Positions 16,707 through 55,100 of a DNA stretch of 64,000 bases are shown here, one piece after another (position 1 is the stretch's first letter; each line of letters starts with the position of its first letter). Origin of the DNA: Chlorophyllum brunneum. Taxonomy: Eukaryota > Basidiomycota > Agaricomycetes > Agaricales > Agaricaceae. The stretch is taken from assembly GCA_963576785.1 (NCBI GenBank), contig OY756146.1, positions 2,170,001 through 2,234,000 on the forward strand, given 5' to 3'. A program made the position numbers and the translations under genes. The notes under the pieces were generated by a model. That model made no database searches. It saw only the letters and a list, made by a program, of their open reading frames with translations, and had not been told where the DNA came from.

Positions 16707-17844
16707 TCAATCATCCCTTCCAGCACTACGGTTGACATCTTGTTGAGTCTGGCCCTTATCCTGACGGAGGTTTCCTAAACCAGGCATAATTCAGAACCAA
16801 CGAGGGAAAAAAAAACGTCGTCGACAATTACCATAAGCCTGCTGCCGCTCATCACCAGTGACAGCACCAACAACAGAATCCTTTGTTCCGCCAGCTCGAT
16901 TTTGGGTACCCTCCGTATAGGCCCCGGGGCGAGCAGCCTCATATTCTGCATTACCCTGAGCACGTTCTTGTTGGCCCGGAGATTGGACATTCGTGGGGCC
17001 CGTCACATTCCCTCTCCCACCAACCCGATCTTGGGTACCATTTGCATAAGGCCCCGAGCGAGCAGCCTCATATTCTGCATTACCCTGAGCACGTTCTTGT
17101 TGACTCGAAGATTGAAGATTCGTGGGGTCTCTCACATTCCCCGTCCCACCAACCCGACCATGGGTACCCGTTCCATAGGTCCCGGAGCGAGCAGCCCCAT
17201 ATTCTGCATTACCCTGAGCACGTTCTTGTTGGCCCGGGGATTGGACATTCGTGGGGCCCGTCACATTCCCTCTCCCACCAACCCGATCTTGGGTACCATT
17301 TGCATAAGGTCCGGAGCGAGCAGCCTCATATTCTGCATTACCCTGAGCACGTTCTTGTTGACCCGAAGATTGAAGATTCGTGGGGCCCGTCACGTTCCCC
17401 GTCCCACCAACCCGACCATGGGTACCCGTTCCATAGGTCCCGGAGCGAGCAGCCCCATATTCTGCATTACCCTGAGCACGTTCTTGTTGGCCCGAGGATT
17501 GAAGATTCGTGGGCCCTCTCACATTCCCCGCCCCACCAACCCGACCATGGGTACCCGTTCCATAGGCCCCAGAGTGAGCAGCCTCATATTCGGCATTACC
17601 CTGAGCACGTTCTTGTTGACCCGAAGATTGGAGCTTCATGGAGCCCGTCACGCTTCCCAACTACGAAACACCATAAACATTGAATTTTACTGTCAGAAAA
17701 CAAGTGCATACTCCTTCCTTGAGACCGCCTTTGGTAGTGTGCCATTGGCCAGTAAGTTTACTGATGAGTAACGGAGCGATACTGTCAGTGTTATGATAAG
17801 AAAGCGAAAGAAACAATGACTACAAACCTAGGATCGCTGGACAT
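16707..17844 (-). CDS. CsbD-like stress protein (Hmp1-type) with six-fold internal repeat
   Basis: Four exons, 17844-17828, 17760-17712, 17660-16832 and 16774-16707, give 320 residues. The N-terminus (MSSDPSKLTGQWHTTKGG) and C-terminus (VGAVTGDERQQ, then NLRQDKGQTQQ) match what I recall of fungal CsbD-domain proteins annotated 'mismatched base pair and cruciform DNA recognition protein', which are normally about 90-110 residues. Here exon 3 carries the central unit of 43 residues (LQSSGQQERAQGNAEYEAARS, abbreviated) six times in a row. Each unit keeps QxSGQQERAQGNAEY, AARSG and a GTxxRVGG end. The protein is highly hydrophilic and probably disordered, like other CsbD/hydrophilin proteins induced by stress. 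Two of the introns are short and the first exon codes only five residues plus two bases. The role is inferred from family resemblance only. Confidence 0.85.
16880..17650 (-). repeat. Six tandem 129-bp coding repeats in the CsbD-like gene
   Basis: The same landmark (CACGTTCTTGTTG on the plus strand) recurs at 16961, 17090, 17219, 17348, 17477 and 17606, exactly 129 bp apart each time. The unit equals 43 codons, so copy-number change preserves the reading frame. Units 1/3 and 2/4 (counted from the left) are more alike than neighbours, suggesting at least one two-unit duplication. Confidence 0.95.
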
Positions 17845-18909: not shown

Positions 18910-20024
18910 ATGGGTCAGACTTTCAGCAGCCGGTTTCCCCTACTCTGGGATACCAGTTTGTGGCTGAAATACTACACCACGTACAGGGGAAACGCCCGGA
19001 CTGGTATTGTAATCGCGTACGTTGTGATCGTTGAGCAATATAGCAAGAATCTAACGGCGTCCAGCGTTATCGGGCGTACGGGATCTGGCATAAGCAAAGT
19101 GAGTTCATGCTTCCTTCAAGTGAAATTGAGCAACACGAACCTGGTTCCAGTTCATTCAAGATGCGGGAGTACCTGATGCCGCTGTTTCACCTGAGGGCAG
19201 GCTTGACGATAAACCATATACAACATCAATCCAGGACTTAGGCGTTACTATCCACGGAGTCGACTTCGCAGACTTCCCACTAATATTCATTGATACCCCT
19301 GGATACGATTATACGAACCACAACAACGAACACACTAGTCTTCAGAAACTACTATCATGGCTTCGAACGTTGTGCGTCCGGCTCAGCTTTCGACCCTCCC
19401 CGACAGTCTAACTCGAGCCACAGTAGGCCTCATACCAAGCTTGATGGGCTCATTTTCATGCATAATATTGATACCAATGAAATGCAGTACCGGTCAAAGT
19501 TTTTACCGGACCTGGAAGTACTAGAAGAGTTGTGTGGCAGGAACTGGTCGAGCAAGGTTGTATTCGTGAGTTCGCATTGGAGTTATCTTGGTGAAGATCA
19601 GGTGGAATGGAAAAAGGGACACATCGAGGAGTATTGGTCGTGGATGAGGACCAAAGGATCAAGGATGGCGGAATACGGTGTCCCGCCTCGCAAGGGTGCC
19701 TGGGACATCGTGGGACCACTAATAGAATCTGCTCAAAGACGGCGGGAGAGAAAATTGAAGAAGGGGCTTTCAGAATTCGAGATGAACGGGTTTATAAGTA
19801 AAGCTACGTCTTCACGCACTACCGATTTCGTGGAAAGAAAGGTGGCCCTTATGCTAGCGATGGCTTCGAGGCTTGGGCAGGAGGGTTTTATGATGACAGA
19901 TGCAGAAAAGGACCAGTATGCGGGTTTGAATGCGGAGGCGCGGTCCCTTTGGAGAGAGTTTGAAAAAGCGGATGTCGTGGAGCTGAAACGATGGCTGGGC
20001 TCCAGTAGCAAGGGCAGAAAGTAA
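18910..20024 (+). CDS. G-domain-like P-loop protein without the P-loop lysine (array copy A1)
   Basis: Exons 18910-19016, 19065-19098, 19151-19371 and 19424-20024 give 320 residues in unbroken frame. The fold resembles the AIG1/septin-like single-G-domain proteins expanded in Agaricomycetes. G1 is GRTGSGIS where GxxGxGK[ST] is expected, so the phosphate-binding lysine is replaced by Ile. G3 is intact (FIDTPGY). The G4-like position is VVFVSSHW, with no [NT]KxD. A helical, charged C-terminal half follows (LDGLIFMHNIDTNE through LKRWLGSS). The N-terminus MGQTFS fits the N-myristoylation consensus (Gly2, Ser6). This suggests a membrane-tethered protein with weak or no nucleotide hydrolysis; both points are inference. 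First gene of a five-member tandem array. Confidence 0.75.
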
Positions 20025-20059: not shown

Positions 20060-21163
20060 TGGAGCAGCCTATATCCCTTATCCTGGGATACCAGTTTACG
20101 GTTAAAAGACTATGCTACGTATAGACAGAAAGGTCGTAACGGAATCGTAATCGCGTACGCTACTTAATATCCCTACGCAACGCAGCAGGGATCTAATTGC
20201 TTTTAGGCTTGTTGGGCGCACAGGGTCCGGGATGAGCCAGGTAAGCTACATCGTATCTCCTTTTGGGTAAAACTAAGATGAGGATGTTTTCAGCTGATTC
20301 ACGATGTGACGGGATCCCACGGCCCCGCTGTTTCACCTGAAAGCTGGCTGGACGGTGAACCATATACAGTCTCGATCCAGGATTTCGGGTTCACCATTCC
20401 CGGAATCAACTTCGCAGACTTCCCGTTAATATTCATTGATACCCCTGGATATGCATACACCAAGGACGATGACGAAAACGCCAGTATTCAGAAGCTACTG
20501 TCATGGCTTCGAACGTTGTGCGTCCGGCTCAGCTCTTGACCTCCCCGACAGTCTGACTCGAGTCACAGCAAGCCCCATATCAGGCTTGATGGGCTCATTT
20601 TCATGCATAACATTGATACCAACGGAATACGGAACCGGTCGAAGTTTTTACCGGACATGACAGTACTAGAAGAGTTGTGTGGCAAGGACTGGTCGAGCAA
20701 GGTTGTGTTCGTGAGCTCGCATTGGAGGCAGGTCGACGATGGCGAAGTGGAGTCGAAAAAGGGACACATCGAGGAGTATTGGTCGTGGATGAGGAGCAAA
20801 GGATCAAGGACGGTGGAATACGATGTCCCCTCTCGCAAGGGTGCGTGGGACATCGTGGGACCACTAGTAGAATCTGCGCAAAGACGGCGGGAGAGAAGAT
20901 TGAAGGATGAACTCGAAAAGCTCGAGATAAACGAGTTTATAAGTGAAGCTACGTTCTTACACACTACTGATTTCCTGCGAAGACAGGTGGCCTTTATGCT
21001 GGAGATAACTTCGAGGCTTGGGCAGGAGGACTTTATGATGACAGACGCAGAAAAGGATCAGTATGCGGATTTCAATGCGGAGGCGCAGTCCCTTTGGAGA
21101 GAGTTCGAAAAGGAGGAGGGTGTGGCGGAACTGGAGCGATGGTTGGGCTCCAACGGGAGGTAA
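20060..21163 (+). pseudogene. G-domain-like copy A2, intact frame but no start codon
   Basis: The exons corresponding to A1 (20063-20154, 20207-20240, 20294-20517, 20569-21163) all splice in frame, and the protein is close to A1 and A3 (GRTGSGMS, FIDTPGY, LDGLIFMHNIDTNG). The 5' end is missing. The sequence switches from the typical 3' flank of an A gene (CTCGTCTAATGG) straight into the codons for SS that follow MGQTF in A1, with a TAA in frame just before. The nearby ATG is in a different frame and stops after 19 codons. No promoter segment precedes it. I read it as a copy that recombined into A1's 3' flank. It could still be expressed by read-through or from an unrecognised upstream exon. 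Confidence 0.6.
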
Positions 21164-22662: not shown

Positions 22663-23794
22663 ATGGGACAGACTTTCAGCATCCGGTTTCCGGTGCTCTG
22701 GGACACCAGTTCGCGATTGAAAGACTACACCACGTACAGGCAGAAAGCCCGTACTGGGATTGTAATCGCGTACGTTGTCATCTTAGGGCAATAGAGCAAA
22801 GATTTGATGGCATTCAGCGTTATCGGGCGTACGGGATCTGGTATAAGTCAAGTGAGTTTGTGCTTCCTTTGAGTGAAGTGAAATTGAACAAGAACCTGGT
22901 TTCAGTTAATTCAAGATGCGACAGGATCACATAATACCGCTGTCTCACCTGAAACCAGGCTCGACGACGAACCGTATACAATTTCGATCCAGGACTTCGG
23001 ATTTACTATTCCTGGAATCAGTTTCGCGGACTTCCCGTTAATATTCATTGATACCCCTGGATATGCATACACCAAGGATGATGACGAACACACTAGTCTT
23101 CAGAAACTATTATCATGGCTTCGAACGTTGTGCGTCCGGCTCAGCTCACAACCCTCCCCAACAGACTAACTCGAGTCACAGCAAGCAGCATACCGAGCTT
23201 GATGGGCTCATTTTCATGCATAATATCGATACCAACGAAATACAATACCGCTCGAAGTTCTTACCGGACATGACGGTACTAGAAGAGTTGTGTGGCAAGG
23301 ACTGGTCTAGCAAGGTTGTGTTCGTGAGCTCGCATTGGCGGCAGGTTGACGAGGACAAAGTGAAATTGAAAAGGGGACACATCAGGGAGTACTGGTCGTG
23401 GATGAAGGACGGGGATTCAAGGATGGCGGAATACGATGTCCCGTCTCGCAAGGTTTCGTGGGACGTCGTGGGACCACTGGTAGAATCTGCTCAAAGACGG
23501 CGGGAGAACAGACTGGAGAAGGAACTCGGGGAACTAAAGCTGAATGGGTTAATAGGTGAAGACACATTCTCGCGCACAGCTGATTTCGTGCAAAGAAAGA
23601 TGGAGTTTATGCTAGAGATGACTTCGAAACTTGGGCAGGAGGATTTTGCGATGACGGATGCGGAAAAGAAGCGGTACGCTGATTTGAATCTAGAGGCGCG
23701 ATCGCTTTGGAGAGCTCTCGAGAAAGAGGTGGATGTGATGGAACTGGAACAATGGTTGATCTCCAGTGATAAGTGGGGAAAGTACGAATGCTAA
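22663..23794 (+). CDS. G-domain-like P-loop protein without the P-loop lysine (array copy A3)
   Basis: Exons 22663-22769, 22818-22851, 22906-23129 and 23182-23794 give 325 residues. The exon lengths 107, 34 and 224 equal those of the sister genes (221 in A1). It starts MGQTFSIRF, again a myristoylation-type N-terminus. G1 is GRTGSGIS and G3 is FIDTPGY. The C-terminal helices are conserved with A1 (VLEELCGKDWSSKVVF, RRREN, LGQEDFAMTDAEK). All splice sites are canonical and there is no frame damage, so A3 and A1 are the best candidates for functional members. Like A1 it lacks the Walker A lysine and a G4 [NT]KxD. Confidence 0.75.
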
Positions 23795-30437: not shown

Positions 30438-33400
30438 TCATAATTGCTGCTTTTTACCTCCCCTTTTTATAGGTTTTGTCCTCGAAATCTTGCCCATGAA
30501 CTCTTGTACTGCTTCCTTGGCGTTTCCCAGATTTGCTTTATCTTCCCATGTATCTTCTTCAGACGTATATCCTTTCCAGTGTATTAGGTACTGTTTTCGT
30601 TTTCCTCTTGTATGGTGTCCTCGGACTTCATCCACCTCATAGTGTTCCTCATTATTGATTATCTTGGGGATCGGTGGTGGCAGAGTATGCTGGCTGTCAT
30701 ACTCAGGTTTGTGATAGGGGGAGAGGAGTCTGCTGTTAAACACGTCATGTATCGCCCATGTTTCAGGTAGCTCCAGTCAGTAGCTTGTTTCACCTATTTT
30801 TTCTTTTACTCGGAAGGGTCCATATCTCCTGTGATCAAGTTTTTTTGTCGGCCTTGTTGTCCTAATATTGTCTGCCTCAAGCCAAACTTGGTTTCCTGCC
30901 TGGTACTCGTGTTCTGGTTTTGTGCTGTTCCGTTTCTCCATTTGCATCTGGTTCTATTGTAGCATTTTGATCGTCTCTTGGCATATGTCCTGTAACTCCT
31001 GTATTCGCTCCGTGATCACAGGTGCCTTGACTGTGTTTGAGATATCCCCTTTCCATGGATGTCGTCCGTATACTATCTGGAACAGTGAATGTCCTGTGGC
31101 ACTATGTATTTTATCGTTATACTGGAATTCTGCTATGCTGAGCCATTTCTTCCAGTTGTTCTGCACATGGTTGATTACGTTTCTGAGGTATGCCTTGACC
31201 TCCTAGTTGATGTGCTCCGTCTGTCCATCTGTTTGTGGATGGTATGCCGTGGATAGGTTACGTTGGATGCCGGTTGCTCTGCAAAGTTCTGCCATGAACT
31301 TTGATGCGAATTGTGGGCCTCTGTCACTGATGATCCTGCGGAGTATCCCATGTTGTCTCCATATATCGTCACGATAAATATCTCCTAACTCTTCGGATGA
31401 TAGTGTGGTGTTAACTGCACATAGTCTGATCATTTTGCTAAAACAATCAACGATGACAAGTATCACGTCATATCCGTCTGATTCTGGCAGTGGTCCTATC
31501 ATGTCGATTGATATTTCTTCCCATGGTCCGGTGGGTATCAGTAGTGGGTAGAGATGTGTGGTAGGCCTTGATGTATCATTTAACATCATTGCGTATTTGT
31601 GGCCACCAATATGTTCTTTTGAGGAGTTCAATCATTTTGTGCTGTCCCGGGTGTCCTACGTCCGTTTTGTCGTGGTGTTGTTGGAGTATTTCTTGGCGTA
31701 ATTCGGTGTTTGGTGGTACATATATTCTTCCTTCAAACATAGGTAAACCATCAGTTTCCCATATCTCCTCTGGTCGTTTCTCCTTTTCTCTTAGCCATTG
31801 TGTTTCTCTTCTTTGCTCCTTTCATAATCGGTGTTTCAGGTCTTCTTCTCCCGATATTTCCCAAATTTGTCTGATCTCGGTGATAGTGTTATCAAATAGG
31901 TGGTCAGATAATAGTGTGATATTTGTGTTGTCTCTGGTTGTGTCCGTTTTTGCTAGTCTTGATAGCACATCTACTTTCGTGTTCGTCTTCCCGGGTATGT
32001 GTTTTAGTGTGTAGCGATATTCCTGTAATTCCAGTTGCCATCTTGCCTGTCGTCCTGTGAGTTGTTGCGGTTTTCTGAAGTATTCTAAGTTCTTGTGGTC
32101 CATCCATATCTCGAATGGTTTGTCGGCATCAAGTAGGTATTGTCTCCATGTTTTGATCGCTTCTTGGATTGCTAGTAGTTCTTTGTTGTAGATTTGATAG
32201 TTTCGTTCTGCCAGTGTCATTGTTCTCGAGTGAAAGGCGATTGGGTGCCACTGGTCATTCTGGTTTTGTGATAATACCGCTCCTACTCCGTATCCCGACG
32301 CATCCACTTCTACCCTGTATTGTCCTTTGTCTTGAGGCATTGCTAGTACTGGTTCGCTCGTGATCTTTTCCTTGATCTTCTTGAATGCCTGTTGTTGTCA
32401 TTCTGTCCATGACCATTGCGCATCTTTTTTCTTCAGCTCATGTAGAGGTGTTGCTATGTTACTGAAGTCTTGTATGAATCGTCGGTAGAAGTTTGCAAAA
32501 CCCAGGAATTTTTCGACGTCTTTCACAGATTTGGGTGTTGGCCATTCTCTTACTACTTTCACCTTCTCTTCCTCCATTTTAATGCTGCCTTGTCCCACTA
32601 TAAAGCCCAGTATGGGTATTTCCTTTGTGTTGAACACACATTTTGACCACTTGAAGTAAAGCTGGTGCTTGGCTGCGATGTCTAAGAACCACGTTGTTCT
32701 TTCCTCGAGTTCTTCCTGTGTGGTTCCTGGAATGACAAAATCATTCATGTAGTTGACGAGCATTCCTTCATGTAACATTTCCCGAAATACCGTGTTCATT
32801 ATCCTCTGAAAGGTTGCCGGTAAATTGCTCATCCCAAAGAACATGACCGTAGGTTCGAATAATCCACTGTTTGTTACAAATGCTGCCTTCCATTCGTCCC
32901 CTTCTCTGATCCTGACATTGTTATATCCCCAAATGATATCGAGCTTGTTGAACACCTTCGCATCCTCTAATTGGTCTAGGACTTCGCCTATGAGTGGCAG
33001 TGGCATCTTATCCTTGATGGTGTGTTCATTCAGCTTTTTGTAATCCTGTACCAGGCATTTTGTTCCATCCTTTTTTGGTATAAAGAAACATGGGGTGGCG
33101 TAGGGGGATTGTAATGGTTTGATTCGTCCTGAGGCAAGGTTCTCATCAAGGAACTTCTGTAGTTCCTGTTTCTCCGCTATTGTCATTGGGTAGACCTTGG
33201 ACTGTAGTACCAGGGGTGCATCTTCAGACAGGTTTATCTCGTGGTCCCATACCGTGTGCTCGGGTAGTTTATCAAAGTTCTTCTTGTTGAATAGGTGGGT
33301 GTATCGTCGGAGGTATGGTGGTAGATCTTCATCATTTGTCAGGTCCGCCTTTTTCTCTTCAATGTGTTCCTTGACTGTCCATATTCTCTCGTTGAACCGT

Positions 33401-33866
33401 ATGTCGCTATGTGATATTTTGCAATTGTCTGGGCATCTGGTGAATTGTATGACGTGATTGTTCCAATCGATTTCCGGGTTATGCTTGACCAACCAGTCAT
33501 GTCCGAGATATAGGTCTGCGCTTTCCAATTGTGTTACTAGAGCATCAATTTGTTCCGTGTGGTTGCCATTGTTTAATACCAGTTGTGCCTTGTCCATTAT
33601 CTCTCCTTTTTTGTTTTCTATTCCATCGGCATTGATTACTTTGATCGGGATCTCCAGGGATTTAGTCAGAATCTGTTCTTCATCTATCGTTCATTGTGCT
33701 ATGCATGTGTGGGTGCATCCAGAGTCTACAAGGGTTGTAATTGGTCTGCGTCCTTTTCTTGTCTGGATTGTTGATTTGAGGAGAAGTTTGCATATAGAGT
33801 TTCGTTTCTGGGGGATTACGTATCGTCTATTGTGGGATAAAACAGAAACTCTAGATTTATTGGCTC
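30438..33866 (-). pseudogene. Retrotransposon pol: protease, RT, RNase H, integrase, chromodomain
   Basis: Domains in order on the minus strand: protease TLVDSGCTHTCI (about 33,740), reverse transcriptase (33,597-32,398; motifs IKPLQSPYATPCFFIPKKDG, FGMSNLPATFQ), RNase H (YRVEVDASGYGVGAVL, NKELLAI), integrase zinc region and core (SIDMIGPLPES, ISDRGPQFASKF, YHPQTDGQTEH) and chromodomain (YLIHWKGYTSEEDTWE). The RT active site reads YMND instead of YxDD. Stops interrupt it near 33,696, 32,398, 31,822, 31,590, 31,203, 30,954 and 30,776, and the integrase core is in a different frame from the zinc region. Pol is in another frame than gag. The damage is mostly single transitions (CAG to TAG, TGG to TGA). 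Not functional. Confidence 0.92.
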
Positions 33867-33878
33867 ATGGGTTTGCGC

Positions 33879-35123
33879 CTACTCGGAGCCTTTGACAAAA
33901 TCCTCTTTCTCCTCCTTTTCTTGTTCATTGTCTTCGTTGATCTCTCTGATGTGTGCTCTCTTGGATGCCCTGCAGTTCTTCAAGATGTGGCCTTGTTTTC
34001 CACAATTGTAGTACATTATCTTGGTGTATGTGACTTTCGTCTTCTTCCTGCAGTATTTGGCAATATGCCCATAGAGGTTGCAGTTGTAGCACCTTGGTTT
34101 TCTATTTTGATCGGTGTCTGCCCTTTGTCTCCCTATCTCCATGGGTTGTCCTCTACCTCCATAAGTAACTCCGGTTGTGGTTCTGACATCTCCTCGAGTG
34201 ATGTCTGTTGCTTCATACCCTTGTCCTACTGCGAGGATCGTAGTTTTCCATTTGCTATATGTTGTTGGGACAGAGGTTGTCGGGTAGCCTACTATGGTTC
34301 GGATAATGTCTGCTCTGGTGTGGCATTTGAGGAGGAATATTGCGTGGGTATCGTCTGTCCCCGCTTGGGCTTTCAATGCCTCGAATTCTATTAAGAAATC
34401 TGCCGTGTTCTTCTTCCCTTGTTTGAACGTCTCGATTTCTCCTTCTGTTATGGCTTTCCTTTTTCCCAAGGAAAATGTGGCTTCTATTTCCTTTGTAAAG
34501 TCATCCCAATCTGGTGTTTTCTTGTTCTGGATGGCTTGTAGCTGCATGTTGGCATAAGGGCCTGCTAGCCCCCCTTTCATTCTCGCCAAAATTGCCACTA
34601 TCTTCTGTTCATCTTCGTCTATCTTGTTGAACATTAACCATAAGGATATGGCTCTCCACCAATCATCAAATCTGGTTCTATCTCCATTGAAATATCCTGG
34701 CTCTGGGGCTAGGTTCTTTGGGATGTTGATTTCTTCTGTTATCTCTGGTTCTGTCTCTGGTTCGCTGTGTTTGTTTCCATGGGTCTCGGCAATTTCTATA
34801 TTGGCTGTGGCGTTGGCAACTTCTGTGTCGATTTCTTCTTCAGATGGGGCTGGTTTCTCGTCTGTGCTGTGTTTAGATTCTTTCTCGTAGGTCTCGGCGA
34901 TATCTATATCGGATGTGTTCTCGGCGACTTCTATGTCGAATTCGGTTTCAAATAGAGCTGTATTCTCGTCTACGCTGTGTTCGGATTTCTGCCGTTTAAG
35001 GCCTTCAGGGATTTCTGATTCTGTGGATCGTTTGGATCCTGTTGCGACGGGTAAACCCTGGATGTCTGTTGGTCTCGGAGCTCTGTGTCTTCTCAGTGTT
35101 CTTGATGAGCTACTGCTGCTCAT
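33879..35123 (-). CDS. Retrotransposon Gag polyprotein
   Basis: 414 residues, open from ATG 35,123. An acidic, repetitive N-terminal part (DIEVAENTSDIDIAET-like units) is followed by the Gag core (EPGYFNGDRTRFDDWW, the typical retrotransposon gag start, and FKQGKKNTADFLIEF). A basic end carries two CCHC zinc knuckles. The first is intact (CYNCNLYGHIAKYC); in the second the first Cys is Tyr (YYNCGKQGHILKNC). This mutation fits the general G-to-A damage of the element. It forms the virus-like particle and binds element RNA in active relatives. Confidence 0.9.
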   Translation of the reverse strand: MSSSSSSRTLRRHRAPRPTDIQGLPVATGSKRSTESEIPEGLKRQKSEHSVDENTALFETEFDIEVAENTSDIDIAETYEKESKHSTDEKPAPSEEEIDTEVANATANIEIAETHGNKHSEPETEPEITEEINIPKNLAPEPGYFNGDRTRFDDWWRAISLWLMFNKIDEDEQKIVAILARMKGGLAGPYANMQLQAIQNKKTPDWDDFTKEIEATFSLGKRKAITEGEIETFKQGKKNTADFLIEFEALKAQAGTDDTHAIFLLKCHTRADIIRTIVGYPTTSVPTTYSKWKTTILAVGQGYEATDITRGDVRTTTGVTYGGRGQPMEIGRQRADTDQNRKPRCYNCNLYGHIAKYCRKKTKVTYTKIMYYNCGKQGHILKNCRASKRAHIREINEDNEQEKEEKEDFVKGSE

Positions 35124-35196
35124 ATACTGTCGTCCTGGTTGGAGGCTATTATTCCAAGCCTAGCTACGAATAGTGGCACCTCTTTTGCAAGGTGAG

Positions 35197-50439: not shown

Positions 50440-51383
50440 GACTACTTGTGAGCTCAAAATCAGAAAAACAATGATCGTGTCAGTCACGTGCTTGTAAATC
50501 GCTGTTGAGTCCTAGCTTCATTATGTCAAGTGTGTTGAACATTGAAACCGGTCATCAGCGATACGGTAAGGATGCATTCTTGTTCATGAGATATTCACGT
50601 CCTCCATCCCGTCTTATGATATTCCAGTAACAGTATACGGGGACGCGGGGAATATTCTCGTCCGCAAAATGAAAGGATCTCGTTTGCTCTCATTAAAGCA
50701 CACCTGTGGCGGAGCAGAACAGCACATGAATGTTGTCTTACACCTCGGCGGATACTCCAGATAATCCGGGTAACAGTTGCACACGACTCCAAATCGGCCG
50801 TCATACTACAATATAGAAAGGCGCCGTCTGATCGGGCTGTTCGCGCTCTGGACTACTGGTAGAGATCATCGCATGAGATTTCTTTGCTCCGGTGGTCCAA
50901 TGCCCAGAATGAGCAGGCCGAGCCTTAGAGAAAACCACGCGACCAACAAGTTGGGCGCGCTATCAGCATACTCATACCAGGATCAACAACGTTATCACTA
51001 CCTTGAGAACTCTTACCAGTTTCTTCAGGGCAATGTGACTGTGACTGAGCCAGAGTTTAAGTCAAAGGCTGCTCTCAGAAGTTCCTGCCGACTATTAGTC
51101 AAATTCAGTCAAATTTAAGAGGAGAAAGTGTGTTGCTATCCAGGTCTCCGTGTTGCGCACACATAAATTAATGCTGTTCATACAGGAACTCAAGCGGGTA
51201 GTCGACGAAATTAAAAGTTCATCGATGCCATCAGAAAATGCGATTGTCTACGCATACCTCAGTGCGCCCATTAACTCGAGCACACCTTTTTCCAGCTCAA
51301 AGTCATCGCCTTATATCCCAGCCAGTCTATGCCCTTCCACACCCGTAAAGGGTCAGCTACCCTGCAACCTGCGGCGATGACGT
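50440..51383. other. Spacer between FOL3 and the repeat-peptide gene
   Basis: 0.9 kb including the FOL3 promoter. A plus-strand frame of 81 codons from the ATG at 50,873 (MRFLCSGGPMPRMSRP) and a possible following exon after TACAG at 51,186 are the only coding-like signals; I could not confirm them. Confidence 0.3.
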
Positions 51384-52126
51384 TCAATGTGCATCCGTGC
51401 CTTCCTCACTGCGTTTCCAAGGTGGCGTCGCCGCATCCTCTGGCTCCCGCTTCCAGGTTGGTGAAGAAGCAACCTCATCCGATCCGCGCTTCCAGCCTGG
51501 AGCACTACTCTCCTCACGTCTCCAACCGGGTGCGCCATTTTCCCCACCTCTCCTCCAGCCAGGTGCGCCATTTTCCCCACGTTTCCTCCAACCAGGTGAG
51601 CCACTTTCCTCACGTCTCCAGCCGGGTGCGCCATTTTCCTCTCTCCGCCATCCTGGTGCACTAGAACCATCACGCTTCCAACCAGGTGCACTGTCGCCTT
51701 CCCGTCTCCAGCCTGGTGCACCATCTGTTTCTCGCTTCCAGCCAGGTGCAGAGTCAGTGTCCCGCTTCCAGCGGGGACCGGAGCCGGTACTGTGCTTCCG
51801 CCCAGGTGCGTAAGTGACGTCTTTCCTCCATCCTGGAGCACCGGCTTCGCCTCTTCTACAGCCAGGAGCAGAACTGTCGTCTCGAACCCCTATGGGGACC
51901 TGGAGAAATAAATATAAACTAAGGCGGTATGAAGTGGGGACCCTGAAGGACTAACGGTGGTACCGTCCTCCACACCAGTATTACAATGCTGAATGCTCGG
52001 ATTTTCCTACAAGGATGATTAGTTACGAGGGAACCGGGATGTGGAAGTAGAACCCACCATGGGTGCTGCACTAGCGGTGGCCGCGAGGGCAGAAGCGAGC
52101 AGAGCGAAGAAAGTTATAGAACGCAT
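51384..52126 (-). CDS. Secreted repeat-peptide precursor with Kex2-type cleavage sites
   Basis: Three exons in my model: 52126-52058, 52006-51956 and 51899-51384, 211 residues. Exon 1 is a textbook signal peptide (MRSITFFALLASALAATASA). The body consists of about fourteen units of mostly ten residues ending in a dibasic pair: DTDSAPGW-KR, ETDGAPGW-RR, EGDSAPGW-KR, DGSSAPGW-RR, EENGAPGW-RR, EESGSPGW-RKR, GENGAPGW-RR and so on. There are degenerate units at both ends (SAPGC-RR; ASSPTW-KR; ATPPW-KR). The variable part is acidic and the core APGW is near invariant. This is the plan of Kex2-processed repetitive precursors such as pheromone, KEP or dikaritin precursors. The middle exon boundaries are provisional (GTGGGT and GTTAGT donors); exon 3 and the signal exon are clear. 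Product unknown; no Cys-rich effector pattern. Confidence 0.8.
51390..51850 (-). repeat. Coding minisatellite of 30-33 bp in the precursor gene
   Basis: GGTGC landmarks on the plus strand recur at 30-bp spacing from 51,627 to 51,807, and at 33-bp spacing between 51,531 and 51,597. Each unit is ten or eleven codons, so the frame is kept when units are gained or lost. Confidence 0.9.
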
Positions 52127-52176
52127 CTATGTTTGGGTGACTTCTGAGTTACCTCCCTTACTCGAAAGGGCTCATG

Positions 52177-52183
52177 TTATATA
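52177..52183 (-). promoter_or_regulatory. TATA box of the precursor gene
   Basis: TATATAA on the minus strand, 51 bp upstream of the ATG at 52,126, consistent with a strong promoter and a very short 5' UTR. Confidence 0.5.
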
Positions 52184-55100
52184 CTCGGCGGGACTCAGAT
52201 ACTGACTTGGGACTACCCTCAGACGGTTAGTGTGCCTGAGATCAAGAAGCATGCGTCACAGTTGCCTGGAAGAAGATTGAGTGGTGCAATATCCCCATGT
52301 GGATTAAGCGAGTCTTTCCAGTTCAGATTTGAATCAAGTAGCATGATATCCACAATCGTATACTCAACGGGCTCTCAATCGGGCTCGTTAGCCCATGTCA
52401 ACTCATATGTTTGCCAGCACTATCCCGAAGCTTTTGCGCAGGCCAAATCAATGGCGTCTATTTGATGTCCTGTTGGGGAACCATCTCCCGAATAGTGTAC
52501 GGTTTTTTTGGAACACAGACCCATGATCATAGTTCTTCTTAAGTTTGGCAACAGCACGGACCATGTGTGCCCGATGACGGACGAGTCAGAGCACATGGCC
52601 TATATACGTGGATCCCGCTGATAAGAACACCCGGCTAAAGCTGGTATGGGGTACGGGACTCTAGGGGAAAAAGCAAAGACCACAGGGAGACATGGTAAGC
52701 CGGCTGCGCCTCGCTGACATTTCCCCGGTCTCCTGAAGGTAGAATAGGTACAAGATAGGTTGACCGATTGTCGGACTGTTCTCTCTCTACCTTCGGCTGA
52801 ATTTTGGTCTCGGTATTGCCTGCTGGTCTATTTCCAGCTTGTGCCGAACAACCTCATACCCGTATATCTCGCCTGACAACGTAATTCGACCCATGACTGT
52901 TACGCGCGCATGGTTCTAACGGATAACATAGAAAATGGGTCAAAGTCATCCAGTGTCCTGGAATATGTTGGCATTGAATGGGGATTAGTATAGTGGAAAA
53001 CCATGAGGGCTCAGTGATTACCCCTCCCAATAAGACCCTAACAAGTGTCCTGGCTTCTGTTTAACATGTGTGGAGGTCCAGATGTGCTAAAATAGATGCA
53101 GCTATTGCCTTGGCCACCGTTTACGGCGGGAAAAGGAGGCACCCTGACATTCGAGTACTAGGAGCCACCGGAAAAGTACACCACTCCTTTCCCTTACAGA
53201 ACAGCCTCAGCAGAACAGAAGAACTTGCCGCAATTTGTTATCCGACACGCCCGGTTTGTGTCCACATATTATGGAGTGAAATAGGTAACCTCTCCTCGGA
53301 TTTGGGGACACGGATTCAGCCTGAGAGAAGCTCGTGCGGCCGCCGCTATTCAATTAACCACTAGTCACCGGTCATAAATCAGTCGTCAAGGGGAAGGTCA
53401 AGTTTGACAGCATGAGTTACTCGACGCGTTGAAGCAAGACCTCTTGTCGTGGCAGGATATTGTTGCCATACACACGTATGTGTTCGAGTCAAGAAAGGGA
53501 GAGGCGTACCTTTTCGAAGAAATTCAGATAAATTTTGGCAACATCATTCCATTGCGTTCGGATGAAACAAGTGCGTAAAACCGAGGAAGACGGATGACGG
53601 GCTAGAGTTGCCCAAAATGTGGCATCGTTTAACAAATCGAGCGAAGGGAATTGCGGTGCCCGCTACGCCGGAGGTAGCAGGAACGGTCACCATTTTTTCG
53701 TCAAAGCTTGTTAATTCTGTTCCTGTTCAATGTCAAGACAAGTGAACAGTAAGTGGGGTATGAGTCATATACGAGCATCTCCCCCACACCATTGATCCCA
53801 GTGTAACCCCCAGTTAACCTGGCCTGGAGCACAGAACACGAAGTGTAATCTGACCAATTCCGGCCATCTATTCCTCACATGAGCATGTTCCGCGGCGAAA
53901 CGGAACCTTCGCAAATGTCATTAGTACCCGAACACTGCACCACGGGCCTTCATCCCCTAGAGCTCCGGTCAGGTAAAATAGCCAGATATAGCTACCAATT
54001 CGTTTCTGCCAGCGTTCATGATAGGTACAATTCCCCATTAAACAATCATCAGACAGGTCTTCTCAAGCAAAAACCATCTATGATACTCTTGATTAATTCG
54101 CTTTTGAGGGTCTGAAAACGCCGTGGTGGAGCGGAGTACCCCGGCTTTTAGAGTACATGTGGGAGCCACTTTTGCAAGCCTTGATGGAGTGTAGATCATG
54201 AGACCGTCGCGGTAATACTTGGCTTGGCATAGCAAAGTTCTAGATTTCTTCTTAAGGTATGAAGACTCCGCATCCAGTACGTCCGAAATCCAGAAAAGCG
54301 TCGCAAACTCGTACACCGGGACGAGAACTTGGGGGGAGAAGTTAATGAAAGCACCGAAAAATCCGCGACGAAGTCGAAGCCAGCTACTAAGCTTGAGCCT
54401 GAAGGTGATCGTTACGTAGAGAACAGTGACTTCTCTAAGTACCTTCGTGGCGTTGGTTGGACTTCGTGGTCCAATCCAGAGGCATTCGGTGTATAGGAAA
54501 GGTGAGTATGTAAGTTATTAGTCCGAGGAGCCTAGATTCCGACAGATTTTGATGCAAGGTTCAAACTTGCTTCGTCGCCCACCTAGTTCACTGGTTTCGT
54601 TACTTGTAGTGCGTGCTGTTCCGTGGTGCATCGGTTTCGCTGTTCAGTCATCGAAAAAAAGATAGGAGGGGAAAGGTGCTCTGTATAGGCCAACATAGAT
54701 GACTTTGGCCGTGATGGAGAAGCTTGCTAGTGGCAAATGTTGGTGATCTCGACCGAGGAGGAGCTTAAAGACTTGCTATGAGGGAAGCCCCGCCCAGACC
54801 CAGCACGATTTTTTTAGTACCCAGTCTTCCGTTTCTTTTGCATGGTATATTTCCGATTGTTTTTAATGTTGCATTTATTGCATTTTGCGGTGACCTGGCT
54901 TGTCTGCTGAGGAGTTTTGTGCAACATGGAGGAATGATGTTCTCTTGAATAGGGGAGTTTTGCCTCATTTGGACTTGTAGGAATGTACTTCGAGTGCTCT
55001 CTTTACACAGCATATCTCGAAAAAGTGCAAGCCCCAGATCCGCACATAATTGACTCCTCTGCAAGACTGTTTTTTCACGCATGGTATATTTACAACTTTT

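Follow-up and report, generated by a model that had tools for sequence, protein, structure and literature searches.

A candidate KEX2-processed repeat protein gene with a recurring APGW unit ending in an agaricomycete

KEX2-processed repeat proteins (KEPs) are common in fungi, and their roles are mostly unknown. One survey reported 7,878 highly diverse KEPs in 1,345 of 1,461 strains (Umemura, PMC7329392), and Le Marquer et al. carried out another survey of KEPs (PMC6339444). In mushrooms, Vogt et al. found KEP peptides with a terminal Trp in C. cinerea, L. edodes and Pleurotus, with endings -APSW and -AADW identified by mass spectrometry (PMC9769878). By their account, expression of C. cinerea KEP 490115 in yeast gave QYKAPSW and QMRPPSW, detected in this way, while GPPAPSW came from the non-repetitive C-terminus of KEP 447393; a BLAST search with KEP 490115 returned numerous KEPs from basidiomycetes that have Trp at the C-terminus (Vogt et al., PMC9769878). 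Pichia pastoris has served as an expression host for C. cinerea KEPs. The same source describes no visible (axenic) phenotype for six C. cinerea KEP deletions and no antibacterial effect of the synthetic peptides (PMC9769878).

Here we analyzed a window of 64,000 nucleotides (C8:2170001-2234000) from a 38.9-Mb agaricomycete genome assembled in 14 contigs. We read one locus in it as a KEP gene whose product would give rise to about 11 linear, secreted, acidic peptides, most likely serving as an extracellular signal or as a factor in biotic interactions; the probability of this reading is, in our estimate, about 0.86. An earlier note on this DNA had proposed a Kex2-type repeat precursor, and the site counts, the constraint on unit ends, a plausible two-intron model, relatives with dibasic spacing and a kexin sequence in the genome all argue for that proposal.

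In the proposed mechanism, the precursor would enter the secretory pathway via a signal peptide, for which a leader is seen in the sequence. Golgi kexin would then cleave after KR, RR and RKR, and a Kex1-type carboxypeptidase would trim the basic residues to leave a free C-terminal Trp, an end that is supported by the relatives terminating at Trp. The released peptides would be 8-11 residues long and of the x-x-x-[S/G]-A-P-G-W type. Their action outside the cell, as a signal or in interaction with other organisms, is the weakest step of the scheme.

The closest described systems are the Trp-ended agaricomycete KEPs (C. cinerea 490115 and 447393, L. edodes 2599, P. ostreatus 1091723), which, as described, are likewise secreted dibasic precursors of linear, Trp-ended peptides, and whose -APSW and -PPSW endings are one residue away from -APGW and -PPGW (PMC9769878). 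The precursor studied here differs in its APGW core and acidic heads, whereas the heads of KEP 490115 carry Gln, a comparison based on the published descriptions (PMC9769878). Among the papers listed by full-text searches of PMC, one of them over 5.39 million papers with a single hit that its title marks as unrelated, there was no APGW-type fungal precursor in print, although supplementary KEP lists may contain one, and among the papers listed on the Leucocoprinus genome or secreted peptides nothing on the gene appeared in a title or at the start of an abstract. Thus, the kind of gene is already known from the Trp-ended mushroom KEPs, as far as that account goes (PMC9769878), and what stands out is the recurrence of the -PGW ending.

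Gene model and repeat array

The gene lies on the minus strand, from an ATG at 52126 to a TGA stop at 51386-51384 (Table 1). The earlier note had placed a signal-peptide exon followed by dibasic-divided tandem units at 51384..52126, and these coordinates proved exact. Both features of a KEP were found: an N-terminal leader, whose joining to the array is predicted, and internal repeats divided by KR or RR sites. The leader was read by eye, and its hydropathy maximum was 2.34.

Table 1. Features of the precursor gene and its surroundings, by position in the window
Feature	Position	Strand	Sequence or content	Basis or remark
FolC-type ligase	50511-48997	-	next recognised gene	Pfam scan
C-terminal tail and stop	51384..51410	-	SEEGTDAH
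Two divergent units	51411..51485	-	GSDEVASSPTW-KR, EPEDAATPPW-KR
Nine clean units	51486..51761	-	DTDSAPGW, ETDGAPGW, EGDSAPGW, DGSSAPGW, EENGAPGW, EESGSPGW, GENGAPGW, GGENGAPGW, EESSAPGW	KR, RR or RKR after each unit
Weakly processed stretch	51762..51851	-	GEAGAPGWRK-DVTYAPGRK-HSTGSGPRWKR	RK junctions, poor Kex2 sites
Exon 3, repeat array	51384..51899	-	through stop TGA	sequence and frame tests
Predicted intron 2, 56 nt, phase 0	51900..51955	-	GTTAGT...TTTCTCCAG	enumerated splice solutions
Predicted exon 2, short spacer	51956..52006	-	ENPSIQHCNTGVEDGTT	gene model; least certain part
Predicted intron 1, 51 nt, phase 0	52007..52057	-	GTGGGT...CTAAT...TTGTAG	splice solutions enumerated, picked by splice-site quality
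Exon 1, signal peptide	52058..52126	-	MRSITFFALLASALAATASAAPM	sequence; similar FFALL...S...AAP leader in L. birnbaumii P0001
Upstream block in common with L. birnbaumii	52225..52275	-	about 100-150 nt before the ATG	tblastn, 16/17 identity to P0001 residues 9-25
Frame with partial HMG box	57222-55915	-	next recognised frame upstream, some 3.8 kb from the precursor gene	25.2 of 25.4 bits, just below the Pfam cut-off

Enumeration yielded 9 one-intron and 69 two-intron splice models that kept the frame to the stop. The two-intron model (52057-52007 and 51955-51900, the second intron ending in CTCCAG) was judged best and is plausible, as one of several candidates; a one-intron model, 52057-51900, likewise keeps the frame. 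Under the chosen model, the coding sequence comprises 636 nt and 211 residues. It had been claimed that the longest open frames across the array are in the wrong frames. Measured from stop to stop this does not hold, since no frame there is longer than the repeat frame, which spans 51950 to 51384 and 188 aa. An ATG-to-stop caller blind to introns would still miss the repeat frame, because exon 3 contains no Met.

The precursor contains 13 KR or RR sites, and Trp directly precedes 12 of them, so that the core peptides end as they do in the Trp-ended agaricomycete KEPs. APGW occurs in nine exact copies, and SPGW, APGC and APGR occur once each, in agreement with the nine or ten APGW units counted previously (nine exact and one SPGW); three further units end in GPRW, SPTW and TPPW. 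When exon 3 was shuffled 2,000 times with its dinucleotides preserved, the maximum in any frame was 3 Trp-dibasic motifs and 11 [KR]R sites, compared with the 12 and 13 observed.

Kexin (Kex2) prefers KR and RR and cuts RK poorly. Given the two RK junctions, 11 cleanly flanked short peptides are expected rather than the up to fourteen suggested in the earlier note, together with one 28-residue fragment toward the N-terminal side. Their calculated [M+H]+ values are 848.342 for both DTDSAPGW and EESGSPGW, 832.347 for ETDGAPGW, 818.332 for EGDSAPGW, 776.321 for DGSSAPGW, 859.358 for EENGAPGW, 787.337 for GENGAPGW, 844.358 for GGENGAPGW, 862.358 for EESSAPGW, 1135.490 for GSDEVASSPTW and 1112.490 for EPEDAATPPW. 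The earlier note's description of about fourteen units of 10-11 residues ending in KR, RR or RKR was correct as to the dibasic array, but two of the junctions are RK and two late units span 13 and 12 residues including the basic pair.

The letters APGW ahead of a basic site also occur in the molluscan APGW-amide precursor. Amidation needs a Gly after the Trp, whereas here all 13 Trp residues are followed by K or R, and no WG occurs. The likeness thus appears to be convergent at most, in line with the earlier view that it arose by chance.

Relatives in other fungi and the upstream block

A single-sequence search at E <= 0.1 returned two uncharacterised proteins, NP233_g7812 of Leucocoprinus birnbaumii (P0001; 8.4e-8) and R3P38DRAFT_3172437 of Favolaschia claudopus (P0002; 2.0e-7). 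A profile of the precursor with these two found 18 proteins at E <= 1. A second profile, of 16 sequences with P0005, P0015 and P0018 left out, found 15 proteins at E <= 0.1, six of them new and nine already in the profile; in both profile searches, only the 7,997 candidates with the greatest word overlap were scored. Of the 15 relatives built into the second profile, six (P0003, P0008-P0011 and P0013) were not returned at E <= 0.1 by their own profile, and the set of relatives is therefore loose. It comprises 24 distinct proteins, with Leucocoprinus, Favolaschia, Mycena, Termitomyces and Lyophyllum as named genera, plus Rhizoctonia (P0018, not significant at E 0.86); P0024 is weak (E 0.077).

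Dibasic-flanked [A/P]PxW units were found in the Leucocoprinus, Favolaschia, Mycena, Termitomyces and Lyophyllum proteins. Proteins that keep the dibasic spacing, a point on which the earlier note had let its reading depend, exist elsewhere, foremost in L. birnbaumii with its 10-residue units. Over the relatives and the window precursor together, the commonest unit endings were APGW (67), PPGW (17), APEW (8), PPPW (8) and APPW (7). In the 24 relatives, 119 of 140 KR or RR sites beyond residue 20 followed Trp, a count biased by queries rich in Trp-dibasic motifs. Twelve of the 24 proteins, or 11 of 22 when P0005 and P0018 are omitted, ended exactly at Trp, as judged from the protein sequences alone. 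This count is only partly free of the query, which ends in SEEGTDAH, but the profiles include the Trp-ended P0001 and P0002; P0013 and P0015, both from Termitomyces, have one C-terminal stretch in common. These ends suggest that the mature peptide stops at Trp.

L. birnbaumii P0001 and F. claudopus P0002 have the layout of the window precursor, with APGW, APPW and APTW cores between them. P0001 also has 10-residue units, a similar leader and the upstream block; it differs in having fewer units (5) and in ending exactly at APGW. P0002 has longer spacers (DPSGPIAEDGAPGWKR) and also ends exactly at APGW. Common descent is well supported for L. birnbaumii only, where unit length, leader and upstream block agree. 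The other relatives resemble the precursor mostly in the repeated motif, which does not establish common descent. Among 16 members of the relatives alignment, the best Pfam E-value was 0.018 (a CTD repeat model, 2 members), with the precursor itself below the cut-off of that model, and no relative with a solved structure was found at E 1e-3.

One relative stands apart. The units of P0005 read GQSAAAGWKR and GHAAAPGWKR, and its leader is unlike fungal ones; it may be a case of convergence, perhaps from an animal.

The upstream block translates as LLPGNCDACFLISGTLT and has one match in the source genome. In P0001, MGI precedes the block in frame, whereas the window has ATGGGGATA in a different frame, and an indel appears to lie between the two. 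The block is probably promoter or 5' UTR; more likely than not it is regulatory DNA under conservation, and its coding status in L. birnbaumii a matter of annotation. The region 52140-52310 folded no better than its shuffles (z +1.60), and Rfam gave no match in the window at gathering scores.

The precursor gene is found once in its genome. Genome searches with the precursor and with Termitomyces P0003 as queries led to this locus only. A pattern of APGW plus a basic codon, loose enough to let N, S, H and Q codons through as well, occurred at 20 places genome-wide, nine of them here and 11 as single occurrences elsewhere. The reversed control pattern occurred nine times, so the 11 stray places give no sign of a second array.

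Processing enzymes, neighboring genes and other possible products

The source genome contains a kexin sequence, a partial P_proprotein match on C3. Other frames of that C3 locus look, by eye, subtilisin-like (DDHHGTRCAG, ASGNG) and like a membrane anchor with an acidic tail. Between about 44.6 and 60.5 kb of the window there are 59 open frames of at least 75 aa; 26 were scanned against Pfam and 20 of these had no match, in a frame scan that could miss multi-exon genes with short exons.

Elsewhere in the window, 16903-17660 holds a tandem array of about 5.8 copies of a 129-bp unit, for which periods of 258 and 387 bp were scored too; the unit length is divisible by three, and both strands carry long open frames. 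On the minus strand, 32401-35159 contains frames for a retrotransposon gag, a zinc knuckle and a reverse transcriptase. Three similar-looking consecutive frames on the plus strand (19284-20021, 20540-21160 and 23042-23791) each carry LDGLIFMH within the first 60 residues and are perhaps a local gene family; the last of them had no Pfam match.

The dikaritins (ustiloxin, phomopsin, asperipin) are RiPPs in which UstYa-family (DUF3328) proteins cyclise or cross-link the cores freed by Kex2. They have the same signal-repeat-dibasic layout as the precursor, and the earlier note had listed dikaritin precursors among those using it. The source genome does carry UstYa sequence, but the eight exon matches among those listed, the best candidates, are all on C2 and C10 and none is on C8, the contig of the gene. 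Instead of the Tyr-centred core of dikaritins, the precursor has one Tyr beyond residue 40, and Pfam scans of 40 of the window's open frames revealed no tailoring enzyme. As for genomic neighborhoods, the published survey lists UstYa neighbors for 4 of 7 members of KEP type P-3, which has W- and P-containing repeats, but UstYa genes near only 103 of 1,680 KEPs in Basidiomycota (Umemura, PMC7329392). A dikaritin cluster was rejected on the lack of a UstYa match on the contig among those listed, and a cyclised or cross-linked product is very unlikely.

Kex2 repeats are also the layout of ascomycete alpha-pheromone precursors, and the peptides could in principle serve in mating or self-recognition through a Ste2-type receptor. 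For basidiomycete KEPs that carry a STE13 signature, Le Marquer et al. put forward roles resembling those of hormones, but their account also states that basidiomycete mating pheromones are not Kex2 repeats (PMC6339444). A DPPIV-type (STE13-like) gene is present in the source genome, and the STE13 dipeptide, XA or XP, follows a fair share of sites in some relatives (3/5 in P0004, 3/6 in P0006, 4/9 in P0007, 4/10 in P0002, and 34/140 over all 24). In the window precursor, however, it follows only 1 of 13 dibasic sites, and we therefore did not file the precursor with the subset of KEP 490115 and the Pleurotus KEPs, which are described as carrying such motifs (PMC9769878). STE2 gave 0 matches in the source genome, a weak result as the control genomes also gave none, whereas STE3 gave 20 exon matches, so receptor genes of this type in fungi are within reach of the method. 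A typical alpha-pheromone was judged unlikely on the dipeptide count and the weakly controlled STE2 search, and a pheromone-like role of this kind is very improbable.

Constraint within the units and the shared ending

We aligned 15 units on the residue before the basic pair and compared pN/pS along them; as the units arose by duplication, these comparisons are non-independent. The ratio was 0.259 for the last four residues before the basic pair as opposed to 0.718 for the preceding four, consistent with the earlier description of varying residues ahead of a conserved unit end. When five of the 15 were left out to retain the ten [A/S]PGW units, the values were 0.038 for the last four residues and 0.547 for the first four, the former being partly built in by picking units for the motif. 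This pattern suggests that function resides in the tail of the unit, whereas for the first four residues a polar and acidic character is the main requirement. Recognition of the tail would be expected to leave just such a division, with conservation there and a freely varying acidic head.

The array might instead be a decayed or non-translated repeat without function. The units at the N-terminal end are degenerate (APGC, APGR and RK junctions), and the constraint figure depends partly on which units are compared. The constraint on unit ends nevertheless persists with all 15 units, the frame is open, proteins of the same layout occur elsewhere and the upstream block is held in common with L. 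birnbaumii. We regard decay as a remote prospect.

Over the unit and its basic pair, the repeat frame had the lowest pN/pS of the six frames, both with 15 units (0.462; others 1.273, 0.953, 1.338, 0.571 and 1.351) and with ten (0.334; others 1.26, 0.853, 1.475, 0.526 and 1.355). The nearest competitor was in each case a plus-strand frame (0.571 and 0.526), so the six-frame test alone leaves the strand unsettled. It is barely credible that this frame, with RFQPGA-type repeats at 51349-51813 and open for 154 aa, encodes the real product, because the minus strand carries both leader and dibasic sites, and proteins in other fungi match the minus frame.

Under the KEP reading, one further idea can be put forward tentatively, and we consider it doubtful: the [A/P]P[G/S/E/P]W ending could be one message common to mushroom-forming fungi, with a conserved receptor or target bound by the C-terminal tetrapeptide and an N-terminal half that is free to differ between units. 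If so, one transcript would give a mixture of peptides that all carry the same key. Which residues matter is suggested by the array itself, in its conserved tail and variable head. Since the same tail recurs in several genera and is close to the -APSW confirmed by mass spectrometry, a small synthesisable peptide such as DTDSAPGW may serve as a probe of the role and perception of these peptides.
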